Assembly (NCBI GenBank): GCA_002708845.1
Contig: PAPI01000004.1
Location: 1-64,000, forward strand
Reading direction: 5' to 3'
Length of the DNA stretch: 64,000 nucleotides
From: Leeuwenhoekiella sp.
Lineage (GTDB): Bacteria > Bacteroidota > Bacteroidia > Flavobacteriales > Flavobacteriaceae
Position numbers and translations under genes: made by a program. Below are positions 22,475-58,861 of this stretch, one piece after another; position 1 is the stretch's first letter, and every line of letters begins with the position of its first letter. Under the pieces are notes generated by a model. That model was not told where the DNA came from and made no database searches. It saw only the letters and a list, made by a program, of their open reading frames with translations.

Positions 22475-22493
22475 TGTCGGGACTATGTCGGGA
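22475..22493 (+). promoter_or_regulatory. left arm-type repeat of element 1
   Basis: TGTCGGGACTATGTCGGGA, that is TGTCGGGA twice separated by CTA. The same 19 bp occur at 26615-26633. It lies 141 bp inside attL and 37 bp before the integrase start. I interpret it as a pair of integrase or excisionase binding sites that may also control int expression. Confidence 0.65.
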
Positions 22494-22529
22494 TTTATTA
22501 TTTTTATCCTGTTCAAATGATTTCACAGA

Positions 22530-23843
22530 ATGGCCTCAATCAAATACTTTATTAAAGGTAGTACTGATCCTAGTACAATCTATATCCGTTTCATACACGG
22601 GCGCAAAATCGATTTTACCAAAACAACTTCGCTGCTTGTAAATCCTCGGTACTGGAACAATAAAAAGGGAACAGTAAAGCAAATTTCAGAATTTGACGAA
22701 AAGAAAAATTTACAGAATGACCTCAACGGCCTCAGAAACGTTGTTTTAAATCAATTTAATGACAAATACGCTAAAGGCGAATTAATTAACGCTGACTGGC
22801 TTAAAAATGCAATTGAAGCTTATTTCAATCAAAGTACTGATACTGATTTAAACTACCTTCTTGACTTTGCAGAATTTCACAAGGCTAACCAGCATCATAA
22901 AATACAGGCAAATGGCAAAATAGGAGTTTCTCCAGCTACGATTAGGAAATACACTACAATCATCAACAAACTTAAAAAGTTTGAAAAGCATAAAAAAAAA
23001 CGGCTGCAGCTGGTTGAGGTAGATTTAAAATTTCATAAGGAGTTTATAAAATACTTTCGCTCTATTGACCTCTTAAGTTATAATACCATAGGGAAATATT
23101 TAACCTTCATAAAAACAATCGTTAAAGAGGCGAAACGCCACGGACTTAAAGTTAGCAGCGATATTGAAAAGGCAGAGTTTAGACCGCCAAAGGAAAAGAC
23201 AACGTTTGTAACTCTCAACTACGAAGAAATAAACCGGATTTACAACTTTGATTTTAAAAACGCTCCATACCTAGACAATGCAAGAGATTGGCTAATTATA
23301 GGCGTTTGGAGTGGCGCTAGAGCTGGAGACTTACTCAAGTTTACAACGGCCAACATAAACAACGGGTTTATAGAATACACCGCTCAAAAGACCGGGCAAA
23401 AAATAATCCTACCGCTACACCCCCAAGTTTTGGAAATACTTGAGAAACGCTCCGGCCGGTTTCCTCGAAAGATATCAACCCAAAAGTTCAATGACTACAT
23501 AAAAACTGTTTGTGAGCAGGTGGGTTTGAGCGAAATGGTCGAAGGTGCTAGGACAACTGAGGTTAAAGACAACGTTTGGCGTAAAGAAAAGGGCTCTTTT
23601 CCTAAATGGCAGTTAGTAAGCACTCATATATGCCGGAGATCATTTGCAACCAATCATTACGGGAAATTGCCTACACCAGTACTTATGGCTGTTACTGGTC
23701 ATACTACCGAAAAGATGTTTTTAAACTATATCGGTAAAACAGCTAAAGACAATGCCAATGTATTGAACGATTTTTGGCAAAATCAGCAACTCAAAAGGGA
23801 CAAAAAAGCAATTCTCAAACCAGTTAAAACAGGTACCAATTAA
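22530..23843 (+). CDS. tyrosine recombinase (integrase) of element 1
   Basis: A 437 aa phage/transposon-type integrase typical of Bacteroidota. An N-terminal arm-binding domain (SIKYFIKGSTDPSTIYIRF) is followed by a SAM-like core-binding domain (about 105-215) and the catalytic domain. The active-site residues are Arg264 (GARAGD), a Lys in AQKTGQK, His366 and Arg369 (STHICRRS), the GHT motif and Tyr400 (FLNYIG). The set is complete, so it is probably active. It should recombine the 15-bp att repeats at the tRNA-Ala 3' end. It sits at the element end away from the tRNA and points inward. Confidence 0.92.
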   Translation: MASIKYFIKGSTDPSTIYIRFIHGRKIDFTKTTSLLVNPRYWNNKKGTVKQISEFDEKKNLQNDLNGLRNVVLNQFNDKYAKGELINADWLKNAIEAYFNQSTDTDLNYLLDFAEFHKANQHHKIQANGKIGVSPATIRKYTTIINKLKKFEKHKKKRLQLVEVDLKFHKEFIKYFRSIDLLSYNTIGKYLTFIKTIVKEAKRHGLKVSSDIEKAEFRPPKEKTTFVTLNYEEINRIYNFDFKNAPYLDNARDWLIIGVWSGARAGDLLKFTTANINNGFIEYTAQKTGQKIILPLHPQVLEILEKRSGRFPRKISTQKFNDYIKTVCEQVGLSEMVEGARTTEVKDNVWRKEKGSFPKWQLVSTHICRRSFATNHYGKLPTPVLMAVTGHTTEKMFLNYIGKTAKDNANVLNDFWQNQQLKRDKKAILKPVKTGTN

Positions 23844-23854
23844 ACTATAGACTT

Positions 23855-24034
23855 ATGCACGACTTATCAACTAAAATAGGATTTATGTGTACTTACTTTG
23901 AATTACTGCCGGTATGCACGTGTATTGACCAGGCGTTTGACTATTTACAAAAACTATGTTTTGACCTCAACGGTTTTAATCACTTTGAGAGCCGGAAAGA
24001 AATGAAGCAATGGTTTTTATCTGACTTTGACTAA
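23855..24034 (+). CDS. small hypothetical protein of element 1
   Basis: An open frame of 59 aa starting MHDLSTKIGFMCTYFELL and ending FLSDFD, in the gap between the integrase (12 bp before) and the 249 aa gene (14 bp after). It has three Cys residues in its first half. The tight fit between genes supports it; no family was recognised. Confidence 0.45.
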   Translation: MHDLSTKIGFMCTYFELLPVCTCIDQAFDYLQKLCFDLNGFNHFESRKEMKQWFLSDFD

Positions 24035-24048
24035 ATGCAGATCTTCAA

Positions 24049-24798
24049 ATGGAATATGATCCACAAATTTTAGACTTGTTTAGGGAGTTTGTACAGCAAA
24101 ATCTTATTGATACGGAACAACAAACAATACAGGATATTGAGAGCCGTACAGAGTTTAAATACGGCGACGATTGGCAAAGACTAAATTCATTAAAAAAGCT
24201 AGGCAAGAACTACATTACAGGGCACTTTAATCACCTCGACGCTAAAGGTGTTGATTATTCAACAGGAACTGTTCAGATTGTCGAAAGTGAATTTATAGAG
24301 CTTATAAATGAATGGAAACCAAACCTAAAAAATTATAACTCTCAAACTCCTGTTTTTGATAACAAATTAGACTTAGAAAAACCACTAGCCTACAAAAGTC
24401 ATTTTCAAATTATCGCTGTAATGACTTACTGTTTACAGGTTCAAATTTTGAACGAATATAGGGAGAATTTAAAGAATGTAATGAACCCTAAAACCATATT
24501 AAAAAATAGTCGAGATAAACTCAGGTATCAACACTTGTTTAAAGATAAAGGCTTTGAAATATTTAACTACCTAAGGGAAAACTTTTACGAAAGGAGCCCA
24601 ACTACTAAGTACACTTTAATTCACGATGTTTTAAGAGGTTTACTACAATGCAACGACTTGGAATATATGAACTTTGTGAAGATGTATTGTAGTGAGGATT
24701 TCGGCTCGACGCAATTTGTAAGAATGGCGAATACTGGAAGTGAGAAATACACAAAGCAACTTGAAAAAATTACTGAGCTTTATTCCAAAATAAAATAG
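24049..24798 (+). CDS. unknown 249 aa protein of element 1
   Basis: A mainly helical, charged protein without signal peptide or membrane segment. I recognise no catalytic motif. It occupies the slot between integrase and HTH protein, the same slot held by the 223 aa protein at 54630 in element 2. Both are of similar size and helical, though I could not establish homology by eye. A role in control, excision or mobilisation (RteC-like accessory) is speculation. Confidence 0.7.
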   Translation: MEYDPQILDLFREFVQQNLIDTEQQTIQDIESRTEFKYGDDWQRLNSLKKLGKNYITGHFNHLDAKGVDYSTGTVQIVESEFIELINEWKPNLKNYNSQTPVFDNKLDLEKPLAYKSHFQIIAVMTYCLQVQILNEYRENLKNVMNPKTILKNSRDKLRYQHLFKDKGFEIFNYLRENFYERSPTTKYTLIHDVLRGLLQCNDLEYMNFVKMYCSEDFGSTQFVRMANTGSEKYTKQLEKITELYSKIK

Positions 24799-24879
24799 CT
24801 CAAATCTATTGAGTTTGATTGAGCTAAAATAGGATCAATCACGAAATACATTTGACCATAATCAAAAACAAATTGAATT

Positions 24880-25161
24880 ATGGCCGATGCTATTTTATTA
24901 AACAATGTAACTCCAGAGGGTTTAACCGAAACCATTTTAAACGGTGTACAGGCAAAATTAGACCACCTCAAAAAAGAACTGCAACCCCAAGAGCCTGATG
25001 AATGGTTGACAAGAAAAGAAACCGCAAAACTTCTTAAAATAAGTTTGGTTTGTCTCCACGACTGGAGCAACAAAGGTATTTTGAAGGCCTACAAAGTTGG
25101 AAACCGCACGTATTTCAACCGTAAAGAGATCAACGCAATATTATTTAACTCAAATAGGTAA
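24880..25161 (+). CDS. excisionase-like helix-turn-helix protein of element 1
   Basis: A 93 aa protein. After a helical N-terminus (1-40) it has a MerR-like/HTH_17 winged helix: WLTRKETAKLLKISLVCLHDW, then KGILKAYKVGNRTYFNRKEI. This is the fold of small excisionases and DNA-binding accessory proteins of Bacteroidota elements. It is clearly similar to the 99 aa protein at 55383 in element 2 (RKxTAKLLxIS, LHDW, GIxKAxxxGNR). It probably binds att or arm sites and guides excision, or represses transcription. Confidence 0.85.
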   Translation: MADAILLNNVTPEGLTETILNGVQAKLDHLKKELQPQEPDEWLTRKETAKLLKISLVCLHDWSNKGILKAYKVGNRTYFNRKEINAILFNSNR

Positions 25162-25166
25162 ATGAT

Positions 25167-25613
25167 ATGGCAACGAACGGAGCAAAATATACGAGAGGGA
25201 TTTACCGAATTTTAGATAACACTTACAAGTCTTACGAGTTATATCAACTTACGGGAGCAACAGAAGAAAACCCACTAATAACAGAGCAAATTAGGATTGA
25301 GAAAAACCGCCAATTTAACAACGGCAAAGGGTTTCCTGACTGGCTTGTTGTACAGGATCAAAGGAAGTGGAGTAAATGTACAAGGGTTACAGGGCTTAGA
25401 CCAACCACAATGCAAAATGTATTTGAAGGGAACCAGCCTGTATTAAAAAATAATAAACTCAAACCGGAGAGCCTGATACTTGTGCAGTTTTCTGAGGATC
25501 GTACAATAGCAGTAGTTGACGTATTCAATAAGTACTACCCCTACGGTAACCAACTATTAAACGCAATGCTCACAAAGCACCAGTTTCACATACCAACACA
25601 AAAAAAGGAGTAG
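25167..25613 (+). CDS. unknown 148 aa protein of element 1
   Basis: Starts 5 bp after the HTH gene, so it is probably cotranscribed. It is polar and mixed alpha/beta by eye, with QDQRKWSKCTRVTGLRPT and LKPESLILVQFSEDRTIAVVDVF segments. No family is recognised. Its stop codon lies within the hairpin terminator at 25604, which closes this transcription unit. Confidence 0.65.
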   Translation: MATNGAKYTRGIYRILDNTYKSYELYQLTGATEENPLITEQIRIEKNRQFNNGKGFPDWLVVQDQRKWSKCTRVTGLRPTTMQNVFEGNQPVLKNNKLKPESLILVQFSEDRTIAVVDVFNKYYPYGNQLLNAMLTKHQFHIPTQKKE

Positions 25614-25629
25614 TATATACTACTCCTTT
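25604..25629 (+). terminator. palindromic terminator within element 1
   Basis: A perfect inverted repeat AAAGGAGTAGTAT/ATACTACTCCTTT with almost no loop, overlapping the stop codon of the 148 aa gene. It separates that gene from the replication-type gene. It could also be an operator for a dimeric protein. Confidence 0.6.
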
Positions 25630-25704
25630 AATTGTTCAAAAGATACGTTAACGAACGGCATTAACGCCCTGTAAAGATATTATTTACAGTTGATAAAAAC
25701 CAGA

Positions 25705-26106
25705 ATGGCAAAGCAAAGAACCTATAAAAAAAGGGCTGACTTTGATTTAAAGGATTTTCTGTATAATTCAAAAAAACCAAATACTAGAATATTACATTTT
25801 AATGAAGATATCGCTCTACATTATGGTGTTGATAATGCCTTAATGATTCAAAACATTGCTTTTTGGGTTTATCAAAATAAAGATGCTGGTAGGAACTATC
25901 ATAAAGGTAGATACTGGACTTTCAATACAGTCGAGAGTTTTACGGCTCAATATCCCTTCTGGACTTATGCTCAGGTGAGAAGGATTTTAAAAAATTGTGT
26001 CAAGGCCGGTGCATTGTATGAGGGAAATTTTAACCGTAAAAAATATGATCGTACAAAATGGTATACGGTTTCTGATCAGGCTAAAAAAATAATGGGTGTA
26101 TTGTAG
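25705..26106 (+). CDS. replication-type winged-helix protein of element 1
   Basis: A 133 aa protein. The core FNEDIALHYGVDNALMIQNIAFWV, YHKGRYWTFNTVESFTAQYPFWTYAQVRRILKN and TKWYTVSD resembles the N-terminal winged-helix of phage and plasmid replication proteins (DnaD-like or replisome organiser). Such proteins are usually about twice as long, so this may be a minimal or shortened version. ATG 25705 was chosen over an upstream TTG. A gene-poor 228 bp stretch follows, a possible origin. Confidence 0.6.
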   Translation: MAKQRTYKKRADFDLKDFLYNSKKPNTRILHFNEDIALHYGVDNALMIQNIAFWVYQNKDAGRNYHKGRYWTFNTVESFTAQYPFWTYAQVRRILKNCVKAGALYEGNFNRKKYDRTKWYTVSDQAKKIMGVL

Positions 26107-26334
26107 CTAAAGCCTTGTAATTACTCATTTGTTCAAATGAACAATTGCAAGTGCTAAAAACGACACACCAATACCATATTAAAATACACATAGTCACTAC
26201 TACAGAGTTGAAAAAAATAAATAGGGGTATGGTTAAAAATCACTAGATAAATACACAAGTGTACAACGCCCCTTAGCAAAGTTTTTACTCAATGAAATAA
26301 AATGAGGGGGGGGTATGTATCTCAGTACAACAAT
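26107..26334 (+). other. non-coding stretch of element 1, possible origin
   Basis: AT-rich sequence between the replication-type gene and the last small gene. It contains an inverted repeat TTGTTC-AAAT-GAACAA (26129-26144), a short ACAC-AA-GTGT and a run of eight G residues near 26305. Position and composition suit a replication origin, but no iterons were found. Confidence 0.35.
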
Positions 26335-26601
26335 ATGAAAGAATTTACAAAGGCTCAATTCTGGGAGCAATACGATTTATTCAGCATAGAAATAGACGGC
26401 ATTACACATTACTTAGCTGGAGACCTCAACCAAATTTTAAAAAATTACCGGCTGGAGCTTTCAAATGATATTTACACGTGTGAGCAATGCAGGGCAATTC
26501 TAACAATTATTAAAGATGAAAATAACAAAGAACTGGAGACCTCAACCAGTTTGTTTATTCCGGTGAACAAAATCAATGCCTTTTTAAAACCACTTAATTA
26601 G
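26335..26601 (+). CDS. unknown 88 aa protein of element 1
   Basis: Begins MKEFTKAQFWEQYDLFSIEIDGITHYLAGD and contains a CEQC pair. The frame is open further upstream, but that part includes the G run and is unlikely to be translated. It is the last gene before the right arm repeat. No family is recognised. Confidence 0.5.
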   Translation: MKEFTKAQFWEQYDLFSIEIDGITHYLAGDLNQILKNYRLELSNDIYTCEQCRAILTIIKDENNKELETSTSLFIPVNKINAFLKPLN

Positions 26602-26614
26602 CTTTTTTGAATTT

Positions 26615-26633
26615 TGTCGGGACTATGTCGGGA
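26615..26633 (+). promoter_or_regulatory. right arm-type repeat of element 1
   Basis: The same 19 bp, in the same orientation, as 22475-22493. It lies 56 bp inside attR. Together the two copies give four TGTCGGGA units at the ends of the element. Confidence 0.65.
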
Positions 26634-26640
26634 AAATAAA

Positions 26641-26677
26641 AACGCCCCGTTTGCTAAATACCGCAAATAGGGCGTTC
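26641..26677 (-). terminator. element-borne terminator for tRNA-Ala
   Basis: AACGCCC pairs with GGGCGTT, with an inner GTTTGC/GCAAAT pairing. On the minus strand it is followed by TTTTTATTTT. It is 13 bp inside attR, directly downstream of the tRNA 3' end, so it can replace the native terminator now stranded at 22288. Confidence 0.75.
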
Positions 26678-26689
26678 TCTTTAAATAAA

Positions 26690-26704
26690 TGTGGAGAAGA
26701 TCGG
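26690..26704 (+). repeat. attR of element 1
   Basis: TGTGGAGAAGATCGG, identical to 22320-22334. It covers the 3' acceptor strand and part of the T stem of the intact tRNA-Ala, so integration leaves the tRNA whole. Confidence 0.85.
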
Positions 26705-26765
26705 GCTCGAACCGACGACCTTTTGACTGCCAGTCAAACGCTCTAGCCAACTGAGCTACATCCCC
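26692..26765 (-). tRNA. tRNA-Ala (anticodon GGC)
   Basis: 74 nt cloverleaf. The anticodon stem TTTGA/TCAAA encloses CTGGCAG, so the anticodon is GGC. The G3-U70 pair that marks alanine tRNAs is present, as is discriminator A73. The D arm is GCTC...GAGC and the T arm GTCGG-TTCGAGC-CCGAT (one wobble/mismatch position). CCA is not encoded. One U-U mismatch is in the acceptor stem. It is the integration site of element 1. Confidence 0.93.
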
Positions 26766-26776
26766 ATTGGGTGGCG

Positions 26777-26784
26777 CAAATATA
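26777..26784 (-). promoter_or_regulatory. -7 box TATATTTG for tRNA-Ala
   Basis: An exact TAnnTTTG match on the minus strand, 11 bases upstream of the tRNA 5' end. Confidence 0.6.
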
Positions 26785-26805
26785 ATTAAAGTTCCCTAAA
26801 AACGC

Positions 26806-27606
26806 TTATTGTTTTTCTTTTAAAACCAACAACGGAATTCGGCTTTCAAAATCGGCTTTTTTTACCGAATCATCTTCCCATAACTTTTCAAAAAAGCCGC
26901 GCTTTCGTTTAAAAACGCAAATCAAATCGGGCTTGTTTTCGTTTAGATGTTCGAGTAAACCTTGAAAAACCGTTGCGTTTTCTGAATATTTATAAGTATT
27001 AACCAATTCACCCAGATTCGCATCAAATTCAGAATCCTCAGGCAGATAATCTGGTGTTTTTATTTGTAATAAGCGTAAGTCTGCTTTGTATCGCTTTTTA
27101 ATACTGTGCAGTGGGTCAAGGGTTGAACGATTATTTACAATTCCAGATTTAACAACCATTAGAATACGCGAGATGGGTTTGTATTCAAAATCTGCCGGCA
27201 CCACAAGCACAGCAGTCTCCGTATTTCGCAAAAGTCCGCCTGCTGTTTTCCCGAGGAAATTGGCTTCATTGACATTATGACTCTTTGGGGTTAAAACAAT
27301 TAGATCGAGATTGGTTTTTTGATGAAATTTACCCACAGCTTCCACCCAGTCATCACCCTCAAGCGGTTTCACACGTATTTTTACGCCTTCAGTATTAAAC
27401 CCGCTCAACATCTCGCTGATCTCCTGCTCTGCTATTTGGGCCATTTTCAGGCTTTTGGGCGGCAAGCCTCCCGAACGCCCGGGTTCTTTATACAGCTTGG
27501 AAACATACAATGTCGCTTTAAGTACACGCGCAAGCTCTAAAATGTAAGTGACATTGGTTTTTGAAACTGCGCTCTTTTCGCCAAGCGGAAGGAAAATGGT
27601 TTTCAT
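26806..27606 (-). CDS. universal stress protein, two UspA domains
   Basis: A 266 aa cytosolic protein with two tandem UspA-like halves (about 1-140 and 148-266). The first ends with LGKTAGGLLRNTETAVLVVP, close to the ATP-binding G-2X-G-9X-G(S/T) type motif. The second half is diverged. ATG 27606 (MKTIFLPLGEKSAVSKT) is the family start; the frame extends ten codons further. A -7 box lies 28 bases upstream. Family members help survival under stress; the specific role is unknown. Confidence 0.85.
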   Translation of the reverse strand: MKTIFLPLGEKSAVSKTNVTYILELARVLKATLYVSKLYKEPGRSGGLPPKSLKMAQIAEQEISEMLSGFNTEGVKIRVKPLEGDDWVEAVGKFHQKTNLDLIVLTPKSHNVNEANFLGKTAGGLLRNTETAVLVVPADFEYKPISRILMVVKSGIVNNRSTLDPLHSIKKRYKADLRLLQIKTPDYLPEDSEFDANLGELVNTYKYSENATVFQGLLEHLNENKPDLICVFKRKRGFFEKLWEDDSVKKADFESRIPLLVLKEKQ

Positions 27607-27633
27607 CTTTAATTGCTTTATCTCAATTTTGAG

Positions 27634-27641
27634 CAAAATTA
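27634..27641 (-). promoter_or_regulatory. -7 box TAATTTTG for the universal stress protein
   Basis: An exact TAnnTTTG match on the minus strand. It lies in the 45-bp divergent gap with the GNAT gene. A CTCAATTTTGAG palindrome overlaps the same gap. Confidence 0.45.
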
Positions 27642-27651
27642 AAGCTTATCC

Positions 27652-28155
27652 ATGATACAAAAAGCAAAACCTGCACAAATAGATGAAATACTGGAACTTA
27701 CCCGTGCTTGTGCGCTGGCTATGATTAAAGCCGGTATTTACCAGTGGAATGAGCACTATCCTTCAAGGGCTGCATTTGAAGAAGATGTGAAGCGCGACGA
27801 ACTTTTTGTGTTTACGCAAAGCGGAAAAATCACAGGCACCATTGTTATTTCAAATCTTAAAGATGAAATATACAACCCGGTTAAATGGCTCACCCCGCCC
27901 GATGCTAAAAGCGTTTATATTCATCGGCTGGCTGTACACCCTGATTCACAAGGCCAGGGTATTGCACAAAAATTAATGGATTTTGCTGAAGATTTTGGTC
28001 GTGAAAATGGCTTTGTTTCCATACGCCTGGACACCTTTAGTCAAAACCCCCGCAACAATCGTTTTTACCAAAAACGCGGTTATCATAAACTGGAAGAAAT
28101 CTTTTTCCCAAAACAAAGCAAATATCCATTTTACTGCTATGAACTCGTTTTATAG
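27652..28155 (+). CDS. GNAT-family N-acetyltransferase
   Basis: A 167 aa acyltransferase. Motif A is visible as IHRLAVHPDSQGQGIAQKLMDFAE (about 94-117), giving the acetyl-CoA loop Q-G-Q-G-I-A. The C-terminal RLDTFSQNPRNNRFYQKRGYHKLEEI is the usual motif B region. The substrate is unknown. It is divergent from the stress protein and followed 45 bp later by the MATE gene, so the two may be cotranscribed. Confidence 0.88.
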   Translation: MIQKAKPAQIDEILELTRACALAMIKAGIYQWNEHYPSRAAFEEDVKRDELFVFTQSGKITGTIVISNLKDEIYNPVKWLTPPDAKSVYIHRLAVHPDSQGQGIAQKLMDFAEDFGRENGFVSIRLDTFSQNPRNNRFYQKRGYHKLEEIFFPKQSKYPFYCYELVL

Positions 28156-28200
28156 GCTTTTGATAGTTAGAAAAGCTATTTTCGCAACAGGCTGAAGCTT

Positions 28201-29541
28201 ATGTCAAAAACAAATGCACTTTCTTTTAAAAACATCAATCGCCTGGCGATACCGGCATTGTTGGCCGGCATTGCAGAGCCTATCCTTTCTGCAACCGATG
28301 CGGCCGTGGTGGGTAATGTGCCGGTAAATGCTACCGAAGTTTTGGCAGCGGTAGGCATCGTGGGTTCATTTTTATCTGCCCTTATCTGGGTTTTAGGGCA
28401 GACCCGTAGCGCGCTGCAGGCCATTATCGCACAATATTATGGTGCCAATAAAATTGATGAGATAAGTACCCTACCCGCACAGGCTATTTATTTCAATATT
28501 TTTCTAAGCGTCATAATTCTGTCCTGTACACTTCCCTTTATTGAAGGTATCTTTTCACTTTACAATGCTTCAGGACTTATTCTGGATTATTGTGTGCAGT
28601 ATTATTCTATACGGGTCTGGGGATTTCCGCTAACACTATTCACATTTGCCATCTTTGGTATTTTTAGAGGTTTACAAAATACATTTTGGCCTATGGTGGT
28701 TGCCCTTATAGGCGCCGGAGTAAACATTTTGCTCGACTTTGCTTTGGTTTATGGTATTGAAGGTTACATTCCCGCGCTGCAAATTGAAGGGGCCGCCTAT
28801 GCCAGCCTTATTGCGCAAGGGCTTATGGCGATTTTATCCCTCATCCTGGTTCTTAGTAAAACCGATGTAAGTCTAAGGCTTAAATTCCCCATACATCCTG
28901 AACTGTGGCGACTGGTGGGTATGGCACTCAATCTTTTTGTACGCACCATCGCCCTTAATGTTGCGCTGTATCTGGCCAACTCCTTTGCTACAGATTACGG
29001 CGCATCCTATATAGCAGCACAAACTATTTTGATCAACATCTGGTTATTTTCGGCCTTCTTTATTGACGGTTATGCGGCAGCAGGAAATATTTTGGCCGGT
29101 CGTTTTCTGGGTGCAAAAGATTATAAAAGCCTGTGGGAACTGAGTAAAAAACTGAGTAAATACAGTTTGATAATTTCTGGTGGAATTATGCTTCTTGCCA
29201 CGCTACTTTATGAACCGCTAGGTCTTATTTTTAGTAAAGAACCTGAGGTTATTGCCCGCTTTACCGCCTTGTTTTTTGTTGTGATCCTGATGCAGCCGCT
29301 TAATGCGCTGGCATTTATATTTGATGGAATTTATAAAGGAATGGGTGAAATGAAATACCTGCGCAATGTGCTGATGATTGCTACCTTTCTGGGTTTTGTC
29401 CCCGCGATTTTCATCGGTGATTATTTTGAGCTGAAGCTCTACGCTGTGTGGATCGCCTTCTCTGTCTGGATGCTGATTCGTAGTGGAGCTCTAATCCTGA
29501 ACTTCAGAAAACGCTTTAAACCGAAAATAGCAGGTAGTTAA
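28201..29541 (+). CDS. MATE-family efflux transporter
   Basis: A 446 aa inner-membrane protein with about twelve hydrophobic segments in two similar halves. The start NINRLAIPALLAGIAEPILSATDAAVVGN is the typical first helix of DinF/NorM-type multidrug and toxin extrusion transporters. Transport is expected to be driven by Na+ or H+ antiport. The substrate cannot be deduced. Confidence 0.9.
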   Translation: MSKTNALSFKNINRLAIPALLAGIAEPILSATDAAVVGNVPVNATEVLAAVGIVGSFLSALIWVLGQTRSALQAIIAQYYGANKIDEISTLPAQAIYFNIFLSVIILSCTLPFIEGIFSLYNASGLILDYCVQYYSIRVWGFPLTLFTFAIFGIFRGLQNTFWPMVVALIGAGVNILLDFALVYGIEGYIPALQIEGAAYASLIAQGLMAILSLILVLSKTDVSLRLKFPIHPELWRLVGMALNLFVRTIALNVALYLANSFATDYGASYIAAQTILINIWLFSAFFIDGYAAAGNILAGRFLGAKDYKSLWELSKKLSKYSLIISGGIMLLATLLYEPLGLIFSKEPEVIARFTALFFVVILMQPLNALAFIFDGIYKGMGEMKYLRNVLMIATFLGFVPAIFIGDYFELKLYAVWIAFSVWMLIRSGALILNFRKRFKPKIAGS

Positions 29542-29581
29542 TTTTGATTTATGCCCACTGCGACTGCCTGCTGCAAACCGA

Positions 29582-30229: not shown

Positions 30230-30313
30230 GCGCGCAAAATAACTGAAAAAACAAATATGAATTTCAAAAAATTTCTAAACCCAAAATCCGGAGAATAGCG
30301 AGAAGACTTTTTA

Positions 30314-30321
30314 TACTTTTG
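30314..30321 (+). promoter_or_regulatory. -7 box TACTTTTG for the queD unit
   Basis: An exact TAnnTTTG match 25 bases before the 31 aa gene, which is followed 2 bases later by queD and then lpxH. All three may be one transcript. Confidence 0.5.
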
Positions 30322-30346
30322 TTGCTTTAATTAGTTTGAAAGAAAA

Positions 30347-30442
30347 ATGGAATTCTTAGAGTTTATAAGCGGGACCGGTATCTATGTAATTTTTGCAATC
30401 GCTTTGATTGCAGTAGTTCTTTACCGAAAATTTAAAGGTTAA
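30347..30442 (+). CDS. 31 aa single-span membrane peptide
   Basis: Starts MEFLEFISGTGIYVIF and ends YRKFKG, with one hydrophobic segment (about 11-26) and a positive C-terminus that would remain in the cytoplasm. It is placed between a good promoter box and the queD ATG (2-base spacer), and an A-rich AGAAAAATGG start context supports translation. Such micro-membrane proteins are often unannotated. Function unknown. Confidence 0.55.
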   Translation: MEFLEFISGTGIYVIFAIALIAVVLYRKFKG

Positions 30443-30444
30443 TT

Positions 30445-33796: not shown

Positions 33797-33797
33797 G

Positions 33798-50697: not shown

Positions 50698-50705
50698 CAA
50701 AGATA
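50698..50705 (-). promoter_or_regulatory. -7 box TATCTTTG for the DUF177-rpmF unit
   Basis: An exact TAnnTTTG match on the minus strand, 45 bases before the DUF177 start. It probably drives DUF177 and rpmF, and by read-through the fabH-accB-accC genes. Confidence 0.55.
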
Positions 50706-50750
50706 TAAATTTTTATTTAGCTGTTAATTAAGTGTGGATAAATTTTTTAT

Positions 50751-51827: not shown

Positions 51828-51967
51828 AGTAAACCTATTTTTGGTTTTCCTTTGTAATAGTATTGTAAAAGTAGTTAAGTAAATAACCACCTGACACATT
51901 CAAATTCATTTTATTTGAATACGCTTACATTATATTGCTGAAACCATTCAGTTTAAAAAATAAAAAA

Positions 51968-52558
51968 ATGTTTACGGGAATTATAGAAAACCTCGGAGTA
52001 GTTAAAAATTTGAAACGTGATAACGGAAATCTGCATATCACGGTGCAAAGTAAATTGACTCCTGAGCTGAAGATTGATCAAAGTGTGGCTCACAATGGAG
52101 TATGCCTAACTGTAGTAGATTTACACGAAAACTCGTATACGGTTACCGCCATAGACGAAACCTTAAAAAAGACTAATCTTGGTCAACTTCATACAGGAGA
52201 TGCTGTAAATCTGGAACGGGCTATGATATTAGGCTCCCGCCTGGATGGGCATATCGTACAGGGTCACGTAGATCAAACGGCTACCTGCAGGAGTATCGCA
52301 GAAGAAGATGGGAGCTGGATCTTTACTTTTGAATATGACCCCAACTTGCAAAATGTTACTATAGAAAAGGGATCTATTACGATTAATGGGGTGAGCCTTA
52401 CGGTGGTAAACTCAAAAATTAATCAATTCAGCGTAGCTATTATTCCGTACACCTACAAGCACACCACATTTAAAGACTTTAAAGTAGGAACTGTGGTAAA
52501 CCTTGAATTTGATGTTATCGGGAAATACGTTAAGCGTCTTCTGGAAGTCCGTTCTTAG
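51968..52558 (+). CDS. ribE: riboflavin synthase, alpha subunit
   Basis: A 196 aa enzyme that converts two lumazines to riboflavin. Two tandem lumazine-binding domains are visible (about 1-97 and 98-196). Each has the MFTGI...NGVCLTV or NGVSLTV type repeat, and GHIVQGHVDQ starts the second half. The N-terminal MFTGII is the family signature, so ATG 51968 was chosen. The 3' end overlaps the convergent small gene by 29 bases. Confidence 0.95.
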   Translation: MFTGIIENLGVVKNLKRDNGNLHITVQSKLTPELKIDQSVAHNGVCLTVVDLHENSYTVTAIDETLKKTNLGQLHTGDAVNLERAMILGSRLDGHIVQGHVDQTATCRSIAEEDGSWIFTFEYDPNLQNVTIEKGSITINGVSLTVVNSKINQFSVAIIPYTYKHTTFKDFKVGTVVNLEFDVIGKYVKRLLEVRS

Positions 52559-52766
52559 CATTTTGGCTAAAGCCAAGGAAACAAATTCCTAAAATTAAGC
52601 CAACCGGCATAAGCAAAAGAATATAATCGTCAATAGGAAGCGGAAGTCCTATAGGTGGAGCATCACCACTATCCTTAGTTGGTTGGGGTGGTACTTTTTC
52701 CTGAGCAAAAGCCACACTAATACATAAAAATGCGAACCACAGAAGTAAGATATTTCTGATTTTCAT
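52530..52766 (-). CDS. small secreted protein with C-terminal membrane segment
   Basis: A 78 aa protein. A signal peptide (about 1-22, ending VAFAQ), a Pro-rich middle and a hydrophobic segment after LPIDDY (about 45-66) are seen. The layout recalls the short PID/PEP-CTERM sorting signals and many tiny flavobacterial proteins, but the tail (SQNAKNGLPEDA) lacks a cluster of basic residues. Function unknown. It overlaps riboflavin synthase at its end. Confidence 0.6.
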   Translation of the reverse strand: MKIRNILLLWFAFLCISVAFAQEKVPPQPTKDSGDAPPIGLPLPIDDYILLLMPVGLILGICFLGFSQNAKNGLPEDA

Positions 52767-53165
52767 GATTAATTGAAGTGGGACATTGATTTTACTCGAG
52801 GCGAAAATACTAAAAGTTATTAACTTTCGATGCATATTTAGTGCCTATAATCGAATAAATATTATTTTTCAAAGATATTTCTATTAGAAATAGTTGATCT
52901 TAATCTGATGATATATCTCGCTTTAGCAGCATTCTAAAGAAATTAAAAACAAGGTAAGTAATAAAATTCCTACTTTGTTGATAATTTAATTTTATAAATC
53001 CGGATTAAAAAATGCTTACTAAAAGTAGGGCTTTTGATGTAGCTATTAAGAATAAACTCCACATCAAATCGAAAAACAGGGCTTTTTTAAGTATTTAATG
53101 TAGTGTAATTTCATTTCAAAGGAATAAAAGAGGTATTCCAACTACGTTTAGCCTTTTAAAACAAA
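52767..53165. other. gene-free interval left of element 2
   Basis: About 400 bp of AT-rich sequence without a credible gene. A CCTACTTTG and its near-complement AAAAGTAGGG occur, but I recognise no named element. Confidence 0.4.
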
Positions 53166-53198
53166 AAACCCCTACAAACATACTGTTTGTAGGGGTTT
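53166..53198 (-). terminator. terminator, probably the original terminator of the CAT tRNA
   Basis: A perfect 15-bp stem AAACCCCTACAAACA/TGTTTGTAGGGGTTT with a 3-base loop. On the minus strand it ends in TTTTTTGT. It lies 14 bp left of attL of element 2. Before integration it would have followed the minus-strand tRNA. Confidence 0.8.
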
Positions 53199-53211
53199 AC
53201 AGGTGTTCTAA

Positions 53212-53224
53212 GTGGTCCCACCTG
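53212..53224 (+). repeat. attL of element 2
   Basis: GTGGTCCCACCTG, identical to 58915-58927 at the tRNA 3' end. The match ends at the neighbouring bases on both sides. Confidence 0.85.
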
Positions 53225-53343
53225 AACCCCCTATACTTTTCTTGAATTTTACTAAGTTTTACCGTATTTACAAGGCTTATATCATTAATTTGCTCACTTT
53301 TTACACTCTCCCAACTTAACCTTTAGAAAGCCAAATTAAAAAC

Positions 53344-53368
53344 ATTCGTCCCCTCATTCGTCCCCTAA
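53344..53368 (+). promoter_or_regulatory. left arm-type repeat of element 2
   Basis: Two copies of ATTCGTCCCCT separated by one C, followed by AA. The same 25 bp occur at 58837-58861 in the same orientation. It is 119 bp inside attL and 26 bp before the integrase ATG, next to its -7 box. It probably binds Int or the HTH protein and may shut down int transcription. Confidence 0.7.
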
Positions 53369-53382
53369 TTAGATTTTAAGTA

Positions 53383-53390
53383 TATATTTG
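53383..53390 (+). promoter_or_regulatory. -7 box TATATTTG of the element 2 integrase
   Basis: An exact TAnnTTTG match only 4 bases before the ATG. The start of transcription would lie at or next to the start codon, which suggests a leaderless message. The expected -33 position falls in the doubled arm repeat. Confidence 0.5.
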
Positions 53391-53394
53391 GGCT

Positions 53395-54630
53395 ATGGGA
53401 AAAGCAAAATTTATACTCAAAGAACCCAAGGCTAAAGAAGAAACTTTAGTTTATCTCTTTTATAATTATCAGTACAAAAGGTTCAAGTACTCAACAGGCG
53501 AAAAGATTAATCCTAAATATTGGAATCCCAATTCACAACGGGCTAAAGAGTCTAAGCAATTTAGAGAACATCCCGAGTTTAATAGTCGTTTAGATAATTT
53601 TGAAAGAGGTATAGCCAGTGCTTTTAGAAAACTATTAAATGACGGAGTACAGCCGAATAATACAATCCTAAAGAAAGAACTTGAAGCTGTATTGTCTGGA
53701 AATATTTTGCAACCCAATAAACTAAACCTTTTTGATTTTATTGAACGGTTTATTGAGGAAAGTAAACTGATTAAAAAAGAGGGTACCGTTAAAGTATATA
53801 AAACTTCATTCAAGTACTTACAAAAATTTGCATCCCATTTAAGAACGAATATTGACTTCGAAAGTGTTACACTAGATTTTTACAATCAATACATACACTT
53901 CTTAAGCACTAAACACAATCTTTCCGCCAACACGGTAGGCAAACATATCAAAACACTTAAAACGTTTATGAGCGAAGCCACAGAGCGTGGTTTAAATGAC
54001 AATTATGAGTTTAAAAAGAATAAGTTCAAAACTCTTAGAGAAGAAGCAGACACCGTTTATTTAAGTGTTGAAGAACTCAACTTAATTGAAAAACTAGATT
54101 TGAGTTCAACACCACGCCTGGAACGAGTTAAAGATTTGTTTTTAGTTGGCTGTTACACAGGTTTACGTTTTTCGGACTTTACCCAAATCAATCCTGAAAA
54201 TATTGTTGAGAGCAAATCACTAATGCAAGTAAGAACGCAAAAAACAGGAGAGCGTGTATTTATTCCTTTGCACCGTGTAGTTAAAAAAATATTGAAGAAA
54301 TATGATAACAGACTTCCTCAAACCTATACCAATCAGGTAATGAATAGATATATAAAAGAGGTCTGTTGTATTGCCGGTATCAAGGAAGAACTAGAGACAA
54401 CAATCACAAAAGGCGGGAAACTTACTAAAACACCCGAAAAGAAATTCAACCTCATTTCTACTCACACAGCAAGGCGTAGTTTTGCCACTAATTTATATTT
54501 GGCAGATGTACCCTCAATTTCTATAATGAAAATTACAGGGCATAAATCTGAAAAATCCTTTTTAAAATATATCAGGGTAACTCAAGAACAGAACGCTGAC
54601 AAACTATTAAATCATCCCTTTTTTCAATAA
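53395..54630 (+). CDS. tyrosine recombinase (integrase) of element 2
   Basis: A 411 aa integrase. It has an N-terminal arm-binding domain, a SAM-like core domain (about 100-210) and the catalytic domain. Active-site residues are Arg258 (GLRFSD), a Lys in TQKTGERV, His357 and Arg360 (STHTARRSFATN), GHKS, and Tyr392 (FLKYI). All are present, so it should be active. It sits at the far end from the tRNA, as in element 1, but is only distantly similar to that integrase. Its stop overlaps the next start by one base. Confidence 0.93.
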   Translation: MGKAKFILKEPKAKEETLVYLFYNYQYKRFKYSTGEKINPKYWNPNSQRAKESKQFREHPEFNSRLDNFERGIASAFRKLLNDGVQPNNTILKKELEAVLSGNILQPNKLNLFDFIERFIEESKLIKKEGTVKVYKTSFKYLQKFASHLRTNIDFESVTLDFYNQYIHFLSTKHNLSANTVGKHIKTLKTFMSEATERGLNDNYEFKKNKFKTLREEADTVYLSVEELNLIEKLDLSSTPRLERVKDLFLVGCYTGLRFSDFTQINPENIVESKSLMQVRTQKTGERVFIPLHRVVKKILKKYDNRLPQTYTNQVMNRYIKEVCCIAGIKEELETTITKGGKLTKTPEKKFNLISTHTARRSFATNLYLADVPSISIMKITGHKSEKSFLKYIRVTQEQNADKLLNHPFFQ

Positions 54631-55301
54631 TGACTGATTCTCCAATATTTACAACCTTAAAAGAAGAATTTCAAAAAGCACTAGAAACCACCCCAAACAA
54701 AAAAATGTTGATTCAGCGTGAATTATCAGCAATAGAAAATTTTATTAATGGTAACGGGAAACAGATCAGAGCGGGTATTATTAGGACTATTGACTTTTCA
54801 CATATTCAAAGCGTCATTAATCTGCAACAGATAAGGCATTATAGAAATAATGAATTTCTAAAAATGATGGACTCTCTTTATACAAATGGTACTATTGATA
54901 AATCAATAATTGATTCTGATAGTTTTCTATCTACTTCTTATTTGACGGAAACCATAGAATTTGCTCAGGGTTTGTTTCAATACTATTCTTGGCTTCAGGA
55001 TTTAGAGAATGAAAAACCAAAACCAAAAAAATCTGATCTCACGCACAAGCAAAAAATGTTGGCTTTGCATTATTTAGGATTAGACTTGTCTCAATATGAC
55101 AACACTAAATCTGCAAAAATTCTTTCTCTGATTTTAGATTTAGACGAGGGCAACACTCGAAAATACCTCTCATACGTCGCAGCTGGTAAAAATGAAGTGC
55201 GCACAAAATCAAATTTTAAAAAGTTAAATGAAGTCTTTAAACATCAAGGCTTAGACGATATAGCATTCACAATAAAAAATGATTTAGATAAAATAAGCTA
55301 A
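54630..55301 (+). CDS. unknown 223 aa protein of element 2
   Basis: A charged helical protein translationally coupled to the integrase (TAATG overlap). The C-terminal half (LTHKQKMLALHYLGL, then DEGNTRKYLSYVAAG and RTKSNFKKL) resembles a module seen next to integrases in Bacteroidota mobile elements. No catalytic motif is recognised. It holds the same slot as the 249 aa protein of element 1. A control or accessory role is a guess. Confidence 0.7.
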   Translation: MTDSPIFTTLKEEFQKALETTPNKKMLIQRELSAIENFINGNGKQIRAGIIRTIDFSHIQSVINLQQIRHYRNNEFLKMMDSLYTNGTIDKSIIDSDSFLSTSYLTETIEFAQGLFQYYSWLQDLENEKPKPKKSDLTHKQKMLALHYLGLDLSQYDNTKSAKILSLILDLDEGNTRKYLSYVAAGKNEVRTKSNFKKLNEVFKHQGLDDIAFTIKNDLDKIS

Positions 55302-55305
55302 ACGT

Positions 55306-55330
55306 TGTGGTTACCACAGCACCAACCACA
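55306..55330 (+). promoter_or_regulatory. inverted-repeat operator candidate before the HTH gene
   Basis: TGTGGT-T-ACCACA (55306-55318) followed by a third half-site AACCACA (55324-55330). It lies 52-76 bp before the ATG of the excisionase-like gene, in an 81-bp gap. It could bind that protein for autoregulation. Confidence 0.4.
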
Positions 55331-55382
55331 GGGTAGCCCCCAAAGTAGTTTTACGCCAGTATTAATTAAAAACAATTAAATA

Positions 55383-55682
55383 ATGGCAAACGTAATGCTA
55401 CACACTTTTGAACTATCCGACTTTGAAAAAGTTGTTGAACAAGTTCTTGAAAGAAAACTAAAATCTTTCATTCCTCAAGAGAAAGAGAAACTTACTCTAC
55501 TCACTCGCAAGGATACTGCAAAACTTCTGCGGATATCACTCCCAACCCTTCACGATTGGACTAAAACGGGCATCGTAAAAGCGCACCGTATTGGCAACAG
55601 AATTCTTTACAAACTGGAAGAGGTTAATCAGGCACTTAGTCAGATTCAAACTTCAACAAAGAGAGGAGGTCTGCAATGCTAA
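55383..55682 (+). CDS. excisionase-like helix-turn-helix protein of element 2
   Basis: A 99 aa protein. A helical N-terminus (1-40) is followed by a MerR-like winged helix (LLTRKDTAKLLRISLPTLHDWTK, GIVKAHRIGNRILYKLEEV). It closely parallels the 93 aa protein of element 1. It probably binds att or arm sites as a directionality factor, or represses the operon. The stop overlaps the next start. Confidence 0.85.
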   Translation: MANVMLHTFELSDFEKVVEQVLERKLKSFIPQEKEKLTLLTRKDTAKLLRISLPTLHDWTKTGIVKAHRIGNRILYKLEEVNQALSQIQTSTKRGGLQC

Positions 55683-55894
55683 AAAAGAAAAATGATTATT
55701 CAGTTATCGTGTTTTTTGAAGACGGCACTAAGCCCAAAAAATGGACTTATGTACACAAGCTAAACGGGTTCTCAATGTTCCTTAAAAAGAAACACCCCAC
55801 TTGGCAGTATATGAATGTCTATAACAGACGTTCAGGCGGTTTTATGCGGCGCTTTATGCGAGACAGTTTTATACCGCCCTTTATCACGGAGTAG
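55676..55894 (+). CDS. unknown 72 aa basic protein of element 2
   Basis: Overlaps the HTH gene by 7 bases and is preceded by GGAGG, an unusually strong Shine-Dalgarno for this window, which supports translation. It is very basic (KKKNDYSVIVFFEDG, SGGFMRRFMRD) with many aromatics. No family is recognised. It may bind DNA or assist the Rep protein. Confidence 0.65.
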   Translation: MLKKKNDYSVIVFFEDGTKPKKWTYVHKLNGFSMFLKKKHPTWQYMNVYNRRSGGFMRRFMRDSFIPPFITE

Positions 55895-55989
55895 TTTTCT
55901 TTTTTTTTAACCTTTAAAACACGCACACCTTTAGAACCTTTATTTAAACCCCTTTAAATGGTTTTAATTAATGTGCAACGATTCAGATT

Positions 55990-56823
55990 ATGATGTTAGT
56001 CAAAAATACATATGGAACAAGTGTAGCTTTCTGCACGGGAATGTTTGGCAGATTGCCAAAAGATGAGTTTTCAGGTTCTGCCTTGCAACGGAAAAAACAA
56101 AAAACAGACAAGAGCAAAGCAAAGCCGAAACCAAAAAAAGAGGGAGCCGTTAAGCTTCGCTCCCTCTCAAAACGCTCAAAGCAAAAGATCAGGAAAAAAA
56201 TTACCTGCTTTGCTAGGTGTTATAAACGCCTAAGCTTCGTAACACTTACATTTTTAAATAAAGTTGAAGACAAGCAAGCGGTTGATGTTTTGAGAAAATT
56301 TCTTGATAACGCTAAGAAGCGCAGTAAAGATTTTCAGTACGTGTGGGTAGCCGAACGGCAAACCCAGAACAGTGAATTTTTAGGAAACGTACATTTTCAC
56401 ATCATTACCAATAAATACTGGAAAATTGAAAAATGGTGGAATTACTGGCTCGAACTTCAACTAAAGAACGGCATCAAGCCTAGAGATGCCAATTTTAAGC
56501 CGTCTAGTGCATTTGATGTAAAGCAGTTAAACTCTAGCAACATTAGGTCAATTGCTTCTTATGTGACGAAGTATGTGACTAAAAACAATGCGAAGTTTAA
56601 ATGTCAGGTTTGGAATTGCTCAAGACGTGTTTCTGAACTGTACACAGACTTCTACACCACGGTAGAATTTACAGAACAGTTTAAAAGATTAAACGCAGTA
56701 CTTAAAGAGTTTGAACTAAAAGACCACGGTAAAATGCCCTATATGAATGTAAAAATGATAGACCTAAACAGGCAGACATTACCAATGTACAGACGATTAG
56801 ACGATAAAAATAAAGCAATATAA
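55990..56823 (+). CDS. HUH rolling-circle replication initiator-like protein
   Basis: A 277 aa protein. All three rolling-circle motifs are in order: motif I VTLTF (84-88), motif II VHFHI with His135 and His137 (metal-binding HUH), and motif III YVTKYVTK with Tyr191 or Tyr195 as the nicking tyrosine. The N-terminal 80 residues are very basic. Such proteins nick one strand and start replication of small plasmids and ssDNA phages, or act as relaxase-like nickases. It implies that the element can replicate after excision. I cannot tell the exact subfamily. Confidence 0.8.
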   Translation: MMLVKNTYGTSVAFCTGMFGRLPKDEFSGSALQRKKQKTDKSKAKPKPKKEGAVKLRSLSKRSKQKIRKKITCFARCYKRLSFVTLTFLNKVEDKQAVDVLRKFLDNAKKRSKDFQYVWVAERQTQNSEFLGNVHFHIITNKYWKIEKWWNYWLELQLKNGIKPRDANFKPSSAFDVKQLNSSNIRSIASYVTKYVTKNNAKFKCQVWNCSRRVSELYTDFYTTVEFTEQFKRLNAVLKEFELKDHGKMPYMNVKMIDLNRQTLPMYRRLDDKNKAI

Positions 56824-56825
56824 TT

Positions 56826-57179
56826 ATGAAGATACGAGTACAAAATAATTTAGGCCTTAAGCAAACTTTTTTAGCAGATTGCAAATTATTGACAGGACTT
56901 CACTTTACAACTTCACAGAAATTTATCAAGCAGAATTCTAAAAATTTTGATTTAGACAAGGTTGAAAAGGATGTCTCAATTTCAGTTCAGGGTATGATAG
57001 TAATATTAACGCTAAGACAGGATAATGAACTATTTCAATTTCTTATTGAAGAAGATTTAGACTTTCACGCTATATATGACTTTGATGAAAGTGATATGAG
57101 TTATGAATTAAAACATTTAATTGATATATGCCATAATTCTTTAAAAACCAATATGTCGTTTACAACAAATAGTGTGTAA
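56826..57179 (+). CDS. unknown 117 aa protein of element 2
   Basis: Starts 2 bp after the Rep gene stop, so they are probably translated together. It is acidic near the C-terminus, with EEDLDFHAIYDFDESDMSYELKHLIDICH. No family is recognised. Its end is 5 bp from the end of the convergent restriction gene. Confidence 0.6.
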   Translation: MKIRVQNNLGLKQTFLADCKLLTGLHFTTSQKFIKQNSKNFDLDKVEKDVSISVQGMIVILTLRQDNELFQFLIEEDLDFHAIYDFDESDMSYELKHLIDICHNSLKTNMSFTTNSV

Positions 57180-57184
57180 ATCAA

Positions 57185-57799
57185 TTAAGGTTCAACTCCT
57201 AAAATGAGTAATGGTACTGGAGGGCTATTACGGCCTTGTCTCATTACGTTGTATACTTCACCCTCAAAATATGCAATTCCACTTGACATTTGGGATTGCA
57301 TATTTTTTGTTGGTAAAATTTCTATTCCTAAATTAATCACACCCCCTGAATAAAAGAGCATATGCTTAACAAACAAATCGTAAGCAACAAACGAATATTT
57401 GCCAAATTGAACTTCCACTGCAATTTTATTTTTGACAAAATCCGTTTGGTTATAGCTATAAATTGGTGATTCTTCACCATTGTCTTCAAGAAATTTCTTC
57501 TGCTCGCTAGTTGGCATTAGAATACTCTTTTCCATTAGCTCACGATTCAATGTTATGTAATAAGAGTAGCGACTTTCTTTCCAATTTGTCTTTGAAAATT
57601 CTTTTTGAAATTCCTTATTAATATCTACAGGGCTATAAAGCATATTCCCCTTTTTTGTTTTTTCTTTACTGACCTTAGTCTTAAAATCATCAGCATCAAT
57701 TGATTCGATAACAGATTTTATTTCTTCGTAAAGATCATTGTGGTGTACTATAAGATACTCTTCTCCGTTTAAATGTGAATATTTCTGGGCTATTTTCAT
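57185..57799 (-). CDS. type II restriction endonuclease, BglII/BstYI family
   Basis: A 204 aa enzyme. Asp120, Glu129 and Gln131 in TDFVKNKIAVEVQFGKY give the D-9-E-x-Q spacing I recall for BglII (Asp84, Glu93, Gln95) and BstYI. The region after it (FVKHMLFYSGGVINLGIEILP, MSSGIAYFEGEVYNVMRQGR, PPVPLLILGVEP) is typical of this family, and the length fits BstYI. The family cleaves GATC-centred sites (AGATCT or RGATCY); the exact specificity here is unknown. It lies 10 bp downstream of its methyltransferase on the same strand. Confidence 0.85.
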   Translation of the reverse strand: MKIAQKYSHLNGEEYLIVHHNDLYEEIKSVIESIDADDFKTKVSKEKTKKGNMLYSPVDINKEFQKEFSKTNWKESRYSYYITLNRELMEKSILMPTSEQKKFLEDNGEESPIYSYNQTDFVKNKIAVEVQFGKYSFVAYDLFVKHMLFYSGGVINLGIEILPTKNMQSQMSSGIAYFEGEVYNVMRQGRNSPPVPLLILGVEP

Positions 57800-57809
57800 T
57801 TTTTATGTT

Positions 57810-58745
57810 CTAAACAAGTTTTTCCCATTCTTTAGGAACTTGTGATATTTTATCCTTCTTAGAAGGTTTATGAATTGGTTTATTAATTGGTCTAGTTTTA
57901 AGCGTGCCTTCATTTAATTCTTCTATACGCTTTAATGCCAAATTACAGTACTCTTTATCTTTATCTATTCCTAATGCTTGCCTACCATTTTTCAAGGCTG
58001 CTATCACGGCAGAACCAACACCATTAAACGGGTCAAGTACCCAGCCATTTTCATTTGACAGTGCAAGAACACACCTTTCAACTAATTCTATAGGATATTG
58101 ACAGGGATGAGACGTTTTTTCAGGATGATTTGACTTGACATTTGGAATATTCCAAAGTTCATTCTCCCAATCCCTTTTAACAATTTCCCATATATCAGAT
58201 GGATTTTTTCCTTTAGGGTTACCCGATAACTCACCTTTCTTTGGACCTTTAAAATGTCTTTTGCCAGGATATTTGGATGGGACCCTCACATCATCCAAAT
58301 TAAATATATAATCATCAGTCTTTGAAAACCAAAGTATTGTTTCGTACCTACCTGAAAATCTATTTGAGGCATGTAATCCGTGCCCAAAATGCCAAACAAT
58401 TCTATTTCTCAGTTTTAAACCAAGTTTTTTAAATATTTGATAATAAAAAATATCTAGAGGATAAATCTCACCTTTATCAACGTAGTTTCCAACTTGCCAA
58501 CAAATATTACCCTTATCTGATAAAACTCTTATAAGTTCTTTTATGATTTCTTCTTGGGTCGAGAGATACTCCTCAATAGTCGTCTTGGTTTCATAAGATT
58601 TTCCAATATTGTAAGGAGGTGATGTAATTATTAAATCATATTTAGAACTTTCTTCACTCTTTAAAATTTCTAAACTATCACCGTTCTTAATTGAATAATT
58701 CAAACTAGGATCAATGTAATCAAATAATGGTTCTTCAGTCTTCAT
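57810..58745 (-). CDS. DNA methyltransferase (SPPY, probably N4-cytosine)
   Basis: A 311 aa beta-class enzyme: motif IV TSPPYNIG (Ser42-Tyr45) comes first and motif I DPFNGVGSAVIAAL follows near the C-terminus. SPPY is the usual catalytic motif of N4-methylcytosine enzymes, as in the M.BglII group. It should protect host DNA from the adjoining restriction enzyme. It is first in the minus-strand unit, so methylation precedes cutting. Confidence 0.9.
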   Translation of the reverse strand: MKTEEPLFDYIDPSLNYSIKNGDSLEILKSEESSKYDLIITSPPYNIGKSYETKTTIEEYLSTQEEIIKELIRVLSDKGNICWQVGNYVDKGEIYPLDIFYYQIFKKLGLKLRNRIVWHFGHGLHASNRFSGRYETILWFSKTDDYIFNLDDVRVPSKYPGKRHFKGPKKGELSGNPKGKNPSDIWEIVKRDWENELWNIPNVKSNHPEKTSHPCQYPIELVERCVLALSNENGWVLDPFNGVGSAVIAALKNGRQALGIDKDKEYCNLALKRIEELNEGTLKTRPINKPIHKPSKKDKISQVPKEWEKLV

Positions 58746-58836
58746 AAGTCAAATATTCTACTATCTATGGTAAGAATTAGTCGTTTTGTAAAATTAGAAG
58801 ATCGGAATAAATAAATTAAAGAAAAGAACAGGATTT

Positions 58837-58861
58837 ATTCGTCCCCTCATTCGTCCCCTAA
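58837..58861 (+). promoter_or_regulatory. right arm-type repeat of element 2
   Basis: The same 25 bp, same orientation, as 53344-53368. It is 53 bp inside attR, a distance close to that in element 1 (56 bp). Confidence 0.7.

Follow-up and report, generated by a model that had tools for sequence, protein, structure and literature searches.

We identified two integrative elements in a stretch of 64,000 nucleotides of contig PAPI01000004.1 of Leeuwenhoekiella sp. (GenBank assembly GCA_002708845.1; the whole stretch is called the window), each of which is inserted in a tRNA gene and carries one short doubled motif just inside both of its ends. The motif of element 1, TGTCGGGACTATGTCGGGA, is located at positions 22475–22493 and 26615–26633, and that of element 2, ATTCGTCCCCTCATTCGTCCCCT, at 53344–53366 and 58837–58859; within each element the copies are exact and all lie on the plus strand. 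The left pair has the structure TGTCGGGA-CTA-TGTCGGGA with a period of 11 bp in element 1, and ATTCGTCCCCT-C-ATTCGTCCCCT with a period of 12 bp in element 2. At up to one mismatch, the units TGTCGGGA and TTCGTCCCCT each occur exactly four times within element 1 and element 2, respectively, and never on the opposite strand. Searched without mismatch, each doubled pattern was confined to its two places in the whole genome (39 contigs, 4,353,457 bases), while the reversed control pattern was found nowhere. Exact doubled 8-mers (gap 0–6) that recur as the same string at another place in the window belong to these two families alone. The positions, exactness and single orientation given in the initial annotation were thus borne out by motif search, and its proviso that the motifs must not be widespread in the genome holds for the pairs.

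The outer boundaries are direct repeats, or cores, containing the 3' end of the target tRNA gene (called by ARAGORN). The left core of element 1 (22320–22334, plus strand) is a displaced 15-bp copy of the tRNA-Ala 3' end, identical to the right core (26690–26704, plus strand) in tRNA-Ala(GGC) (26691–26765, minus strand). Element 2 has a 13-bp left core (53212–53224, plus strand), a displaced copy of the tRNA-Met 3' end identical to the right core (58915–58927, plus strand) in tRNA-Met(CAT) (58915–58989, minus strand). Core and pair are 140 bp (element 1) and 119 bp (element 2) apart at the integrase end, and 56 and 55 bp apart at the tRNA end, so that the annotated distances of about 120–140 and 53–56 bp were correct to a few bases. 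Empty sites in relatives were recovered for element 2: riboflavin synthase is 0.5–0.6 kb from tRNA-Met in four of nine congener loci (L181, L182, L185, L188), and in the other five it falls outside the short locus. At the corresponding tRNA-Ala loci for element 1 (L211–L213), no arm pair was seen by eye in 260 bp, and the left flank was not syntenic.

Each left pair precedes a gene for a tyrosine integrase, Int1 (437 aa, 22530–23843, plus strand) or Int2 (411 aa, 53395–54630, plus strand). Int1 matches Pfam SAM_5 above the cut-off and Phage_integrase slightly under it, has the conserved catalytic set R264 K287 H366 R369 H391 Y400, and has a predicted fold that resembles lambda Int and Tn1549 Int. 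Int2 matches SAM_5, Phage_integrase and a Pfam arm DNA-binding domain (PF17293, E 3.4e-07); Arm-DNA-bind_5 was detected in 17 of 55 aligned integrases, including Int2. The combination of a core-binding SAM-like domain and a catalytic domain with R-K-H-R-H and tyrosine, which characterizes the IntCTnDOT subgroup, is present. The N-terminus of Int1 is predicted to consist of three strands and one helix. Downstream, both elements encode an HTH_17 protein that is a candidate directionality factor, located at 24880–25161 (plus strand; Pfam PF12728; phrog_66, excisionase and transcriptional regulator) in element 1 and at 55383–55682 (plus strand; Pfam) in element 2.

The initial annotation had taken the shared geometry as a sign of a common family design. 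Integrase matches were collected across the order (196 and 395 genomes), across the family (349 genomes) and by a contig scan, and up to 20 kb around them was taken at 99 new loci. Together with the two stretches of the window, L005–L010 and L070, these gave 112 integrase frames at 108 loci, of which 102 integrases were kept after ten with at least 90% identity were dropped; a second set of 20 further integrases brought the total to 122. Loci were chosen among the upper entries of the match lists, some of which were passed over, and the frequencies below are therefore not a census; L104 and L194 represent a near-identical integrase from two genomes. Doubled 8-mers with at most one mismatch were counted in the 120 bp ahead of int (−130 to −10); a near pair was accepted at a score of 8 (or with a far copy found) in the first set and 7 in the second. 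Upstream of the 102 integrases, periods of 10 (33/102 versus 34/509 GC-matched windows), 11 (38/102 versus 39/509, 7.7%) and 12 (41/102 versus 45/509, 8.8%) were enriched, and periods 7–9 and 13–17 were at background level. The period-11 and period-12 pairs have many unlike sequences across the family. Such a pair precedes 19 of the 20 second-set integrases, in three cases at 7, the lowest score allowed. As a side observation, the 11-bp unit ATGTCGGACAT stands upstream of the integrase at 7575 in L093 in four head-to-tail copies and not two. The annotation had further reasoned that nearly identical integrases without the motif would speak against it; all six non-redundant relatives with more than 50% identity to Int1 or Int2 (L071, L005, L190, L191, L117, L007) keep a doubled motif at the integrase end, with short or imperfect copies in L005, L007 and L190.

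A far copy of the pair in the same orientation was found for 28 of the 102 first-set and 8 of the 20 second-set integrases, which together gives 36 of 122 with both ends (L111 was removed from the far-end list as spurious, and L207, which has no core, was removed from the second set). A first pass had recovered far copies for 36 of the 112 frames, and in control windows for 5 of 216. Selection of the 36 two-end elements required the same orientation; when either strand was allowed, the only count made in this way, 25 far copies had the same and none the opposite orientation. The pairs are 4.1–18.5 kb from each other. In 25 of the 36 elements a tRNA gene, of nine types in all, starts 41–65 bp (median 56) past the right pair on the opposite strand, and in the remaining 11 ARAGORN called no tRNA within 120 bp. 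Each of the 28 first-set elements has a direct repeat shared by its two ends, mostly a tRNA 3' end, 108–147 bp from the left pair and in some cases extending into the hairpin described below; the exception is L071, for which the reported repeat lies inside the spacer (161 bp). The layout of the two elements thus recurs among relatives, as the annotation had supposed. Separately, the tRNA-Met locus of L187 (congener G399) has a hairpin and another doubled motif past the tRNA, AGGGTGC twice with period 12, as if a different element of the same design were inserted there.

The motif sequence was compared with the sequences of the proteins that might read it, under Mantel tests that correct for shared ancestry only in part. 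Motif distance correlated with distance between Int N-terminal domains (Mantel r 0.333, n = 82), and remained at 0.210 (p 0.002) when the catalytic domain was controlled for; with the N-terminal domain controlled for, the catalytic domain retained 0.051 (p 0.058; partial Mantel, n = 82). For the subset with a far copy (n = 37, here including L207), the partial values were 0.290 (p 0.002) for the N-terminal and 0.030 (p 0.290) for the catalytic domain. The predicted joint change of motif and Int N-terminal domain was therefore seen at n = 82 and n = 37, and was not separable from the catalytic domain in the 19-element second set, whose values are given below.

The same comparison bears on the HTH_17 proteins, which the initial annotation had named beside the integrase as possible binders. 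In 64 of 82 elements an HTH_17-like open reading frame follows int within 9 kb, in 62 of them on the same strand as int; the element 1 protein resembles phage excisionases, and winged helix-turn-helix (wHTH) directionality factors bind next to arm sites (PMC11963761). The pairs could on these grounds be operators or landing sites of such an excisionase-like protein, controlling excision from both ends. Against this, in the 62 elements with an HTH_17 protein the association of the motif with the N-terminal domain persisted given the HTH protein (0.324, p 0.002; partial Mantel), whereas that with the HTH protein vanished given the N-terminal domain (−0.041, p 0.884). Element 2 and L071 moreover have an identical motif although their HTH proteins differ by 54% and their Int N-terminal domains by 26%. 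We consider control by the HTH protein through these pairs distinctly unlikely. The motif thus appears to track the Int N-terminal domain, hardly the catalytic domain, and not the HTH_17 protein.

We interpret the doubled motifs as arm-type sites for the N-terminal domain of the element's own integrase, with a probability of roughly 0.87. This reading is supported by the repeated subterminal motif on both sides of the core and by the association with the N-terminal domain, both at the level of sequence comparison. Each Int protomer would place its core-binding and catalytic domains on the core and its N-terminal domain on one motif copy, and a spacing of 11 or 12 bp between copies, roughly a helical turn, would position two N-terminal domains side by side. 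With one pair per end, the circular form would have four arm sites, as many as an integrase tetramer has protomers. In the integrated state, one pair and one core would remain at attL and likewise at attR, so that each end could recruit its own two protomers for excision.

Several results weigh against this interpretation. The core-binding domain retains a small residue of association (0.061, p 0.018; partial Mantel, n = 82), and in the 19-element second set the partial correlations of the N-terminal (0.196, p 0.026) and catalytic (0.207, p 0.024) domains are equal. In 45 of 82 cases the nearest neighbour by N-terminal domain is not the nearest by catalytic domain; of these, 22 have the motif nearer to the former, 12 have it nearer to the latter and 11 are tied (p 0.12 by sign test, 0.007 by Wilcoxon test), and no alignment column passed the family-wise threshold. 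The Int1 N-terminus has no match to a Pfam arm domain, and a PDB fold search with the N-terminal model alone gave no arm-binding domain among its matches. Element 1 lacks the promoter box TAnnTTTG in the place where it is expected from other elements. Finally, the search for a far pair, which covered 18 kb, was negative for 86 of 122 integrases; such elements may be longer than 18 kb or cut by a contig end, or their pair may be degenerate or absent.

TAnnTTTG corresponds to the Bacteroidota −7 box (PMC7366714) and was found within −12 to +32 of the end of the left pair in 38 of 82 elements, compared with 51 of 1640 random windows. Element 2 has such a match, TATATTTG (53383–53390, plus strand), directly past its left pair. 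The −33 region should often overlap the left pair, which would let bound integrase block its own promoter. Because the left pair so often adjoins the −7 box, autoregulation of the integrase is suggested, and the left pair probably allows the integrase to switch off its own gene. Arm-type sites that overlap the int promoter, and promoter blocking, are described for KplE1 IntS (PMC2951348), and attP-bound IntS of ICEMlSymR7A is proposed to repress its own promoter (PMC11963761). The left box and the documented KplE1 overlap are also what would be expected if the pairs were operators of the int promoter only and the right copy a duplicate without a role in recombination. The right pairs, in contrast, have no −7 box (0/36), and their sequence, orientation and distance to the core are maintained across nine tRNA types, which makes a purely regulatory function very unlikely. 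The box match in element 2 stops just four bases ahead of the predicted Int2 ATG, with a similar arrangement in L071 and L005; on account of this spacing, either the Int2 mRNA would be leaderless or the real Int2 start would lie further downstream.

The 105 bp ahead of the left pair contain a repeat with a period of exactly 10 in 25 of 82 elements versus 8 of 308 windows, and no other period was clearly raised there in the 82 elements. These tandem repeats are mostly A/T-rich and lie between left core and left pair (for example in L072, L155, L166 and L203), and they seem to be a signal separate from the arm pair. In one known case, a wHTH directionality factor bound next to an arm site takes up 10 bp per molecule (PMC11963761), which makes a function as a landing strip for an excisionase an attractive analogy; the period-10 repeat did not track the HTH protein.

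Between right pair and right core, the 56 bases past the pair form a strong fold on the tRNA strand (at most −10 kcal/mol) in 33 of the 36 elements, all but L075, L079 and L197. The same cut-off was reached by 112 of 720 56-mers drawn at random from these loci without matching for composition, and by 205 of 3600 composition-matched spacer shuffles. In 26 of the 36 spacers a TTTT run lies at or past the last stem. In view of the strong folding in 33 of 36 spacers, the element probably provides the tRNA gene with a new terminator, a hairpin that would replace the one lost to the gene through insertion. In element 1, the probable element-borne terminator of tRNA-Ala is a hairpin followed by a T-rich run (26641–26676, minus strand; minimum free energy of the 56-base spacer −23.5), and the probable former host terminator is a hairpin adjoining the left core (22287–22312, minus strand), now outside the element and without a congener match. 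In element 2, the corresponding hairpin and T-run for tRNA-Met are at 58868–58912 (minus strand; −21.0). The left flank directly outside its core is 85% identical over 55 bp to the hairpin and T-run behind tRNA-Met of L182 and contains the probable former host terminator (53166–53198, minus strand), and its own right spacer has no blastn match in nine congener tRNA-Met loci. Because of these two results, element 2 has apparently displaced the host tRNA-Met terminator by 5.7 kb and brought its own.

Of the other genes, element 2 encodes a rolling-circle type replication initiator (PF23343; 55990–56823, plus strand) and element 1 a short protein that resembles DnaD-type and phage replication initiation proteins (25690–26106, plus strand). 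Since each encodes a replication-type protein, both elements may replicate once excised. These genes also favour the notion that the pairs serve as origins of replication or transfer, in the form of iterons or nicking sites, and lie near the ends incidentally. The occurrence of a pair at each end, at a near-fixed distance to the tRNA core, in elements of 4–18 kb, argues against origins, as does the association of the motif with the Int N-terminal domain, and we regard this alternative as extremely improbable. Beside its right end (57185–58745, minus strand), element 2 encodes a BglII-like restriction endonuclease and an N6/N4-type DNA methyltransferase, likely a type II restriction cargo. An open reading frame of 220–250 aa soon after int in both elements (24049–24798 and 54630–55301, plus strand) had nothing above the Pfam cut-off and no match in NCBIfam or PHROGs.

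An integrase with arm-type sites is a system of a known kind, and the arrangement seems to be general for this integrase group. CTnDOT has about six arm sites, not one tandem pair per side, and the number and arrangement of arm sites of lambda Int and KplE1 IntS are also unlike those found here. The N-terminal domain of the Tn916 integrase binds DR-2 repeats close to each transposon end; tRNA genes are not known to be targets of Tn916. Members of the IntCTnDOT subgroup (CTnDOT, NBU1) likewise combine N-terminal arm-binding, core-binding and catalytic domains with subterminal arm sites, and NBU1 likewise uses a tRNA 3' end, that of tRNA-Leu (PMC8138268, PMC10865867). The first catalytic arginine is present here (R264) and in NBU1 but, according to PMC8138268, absent from the CTnDOT integrase. 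Mycobacteriophages of Clusters J, K and L likewise have direct-repeat pairs of arm sites around a tRNA core (PMC3706429, PMC10865867). In Cluster J, attP is located 3' of int, unlike here, and its authors report no obvious systematic site differences matching differences in the N-terminal domains (PMC3706429), whereas in the elements described here the two change in step across many motifs. For tRNA-targeting elements of Bacteroidota, neither the constant layout nor the replacement terminator nor the covariation was found described in the literature searched, a scope that did not extend to subscription papers, including the work on CTnDOT arm sites.

Arm sites are usually found element by element via footprinting, and here they are predicted in many elements by comparative sequence analysis alone. 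Their link to a domain roughly 100 residues long yields dozens of natural protein–site pairs, which makes the DNA choice of arm-binding domains directly testable. The sites also aid the precise marking of element ends and, where integrases are used as genome tools, would guide how much of attP to include. If the replacement terminator is confirmed, these elements restore the transcription stop of the tRNA gene as well as its end. We give even odds to the broader proposal that tRNA-gene elements of Bacteroidota share an att chassis of fixed geometry and free sequence, in which the right end would comprise the tRNA 3' end, a replacement terminator and an arm pair, the left end would comprise the core, an A/T-rich stretch phased at 10 bp and a second arm pair serving also as int operator, and the arm pair and Int N-terminal domain would form an exchangeable lock-and-key module. 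If this is true, hundreds of natural pairs could give a recognition code, and attP could become readable from any genome.

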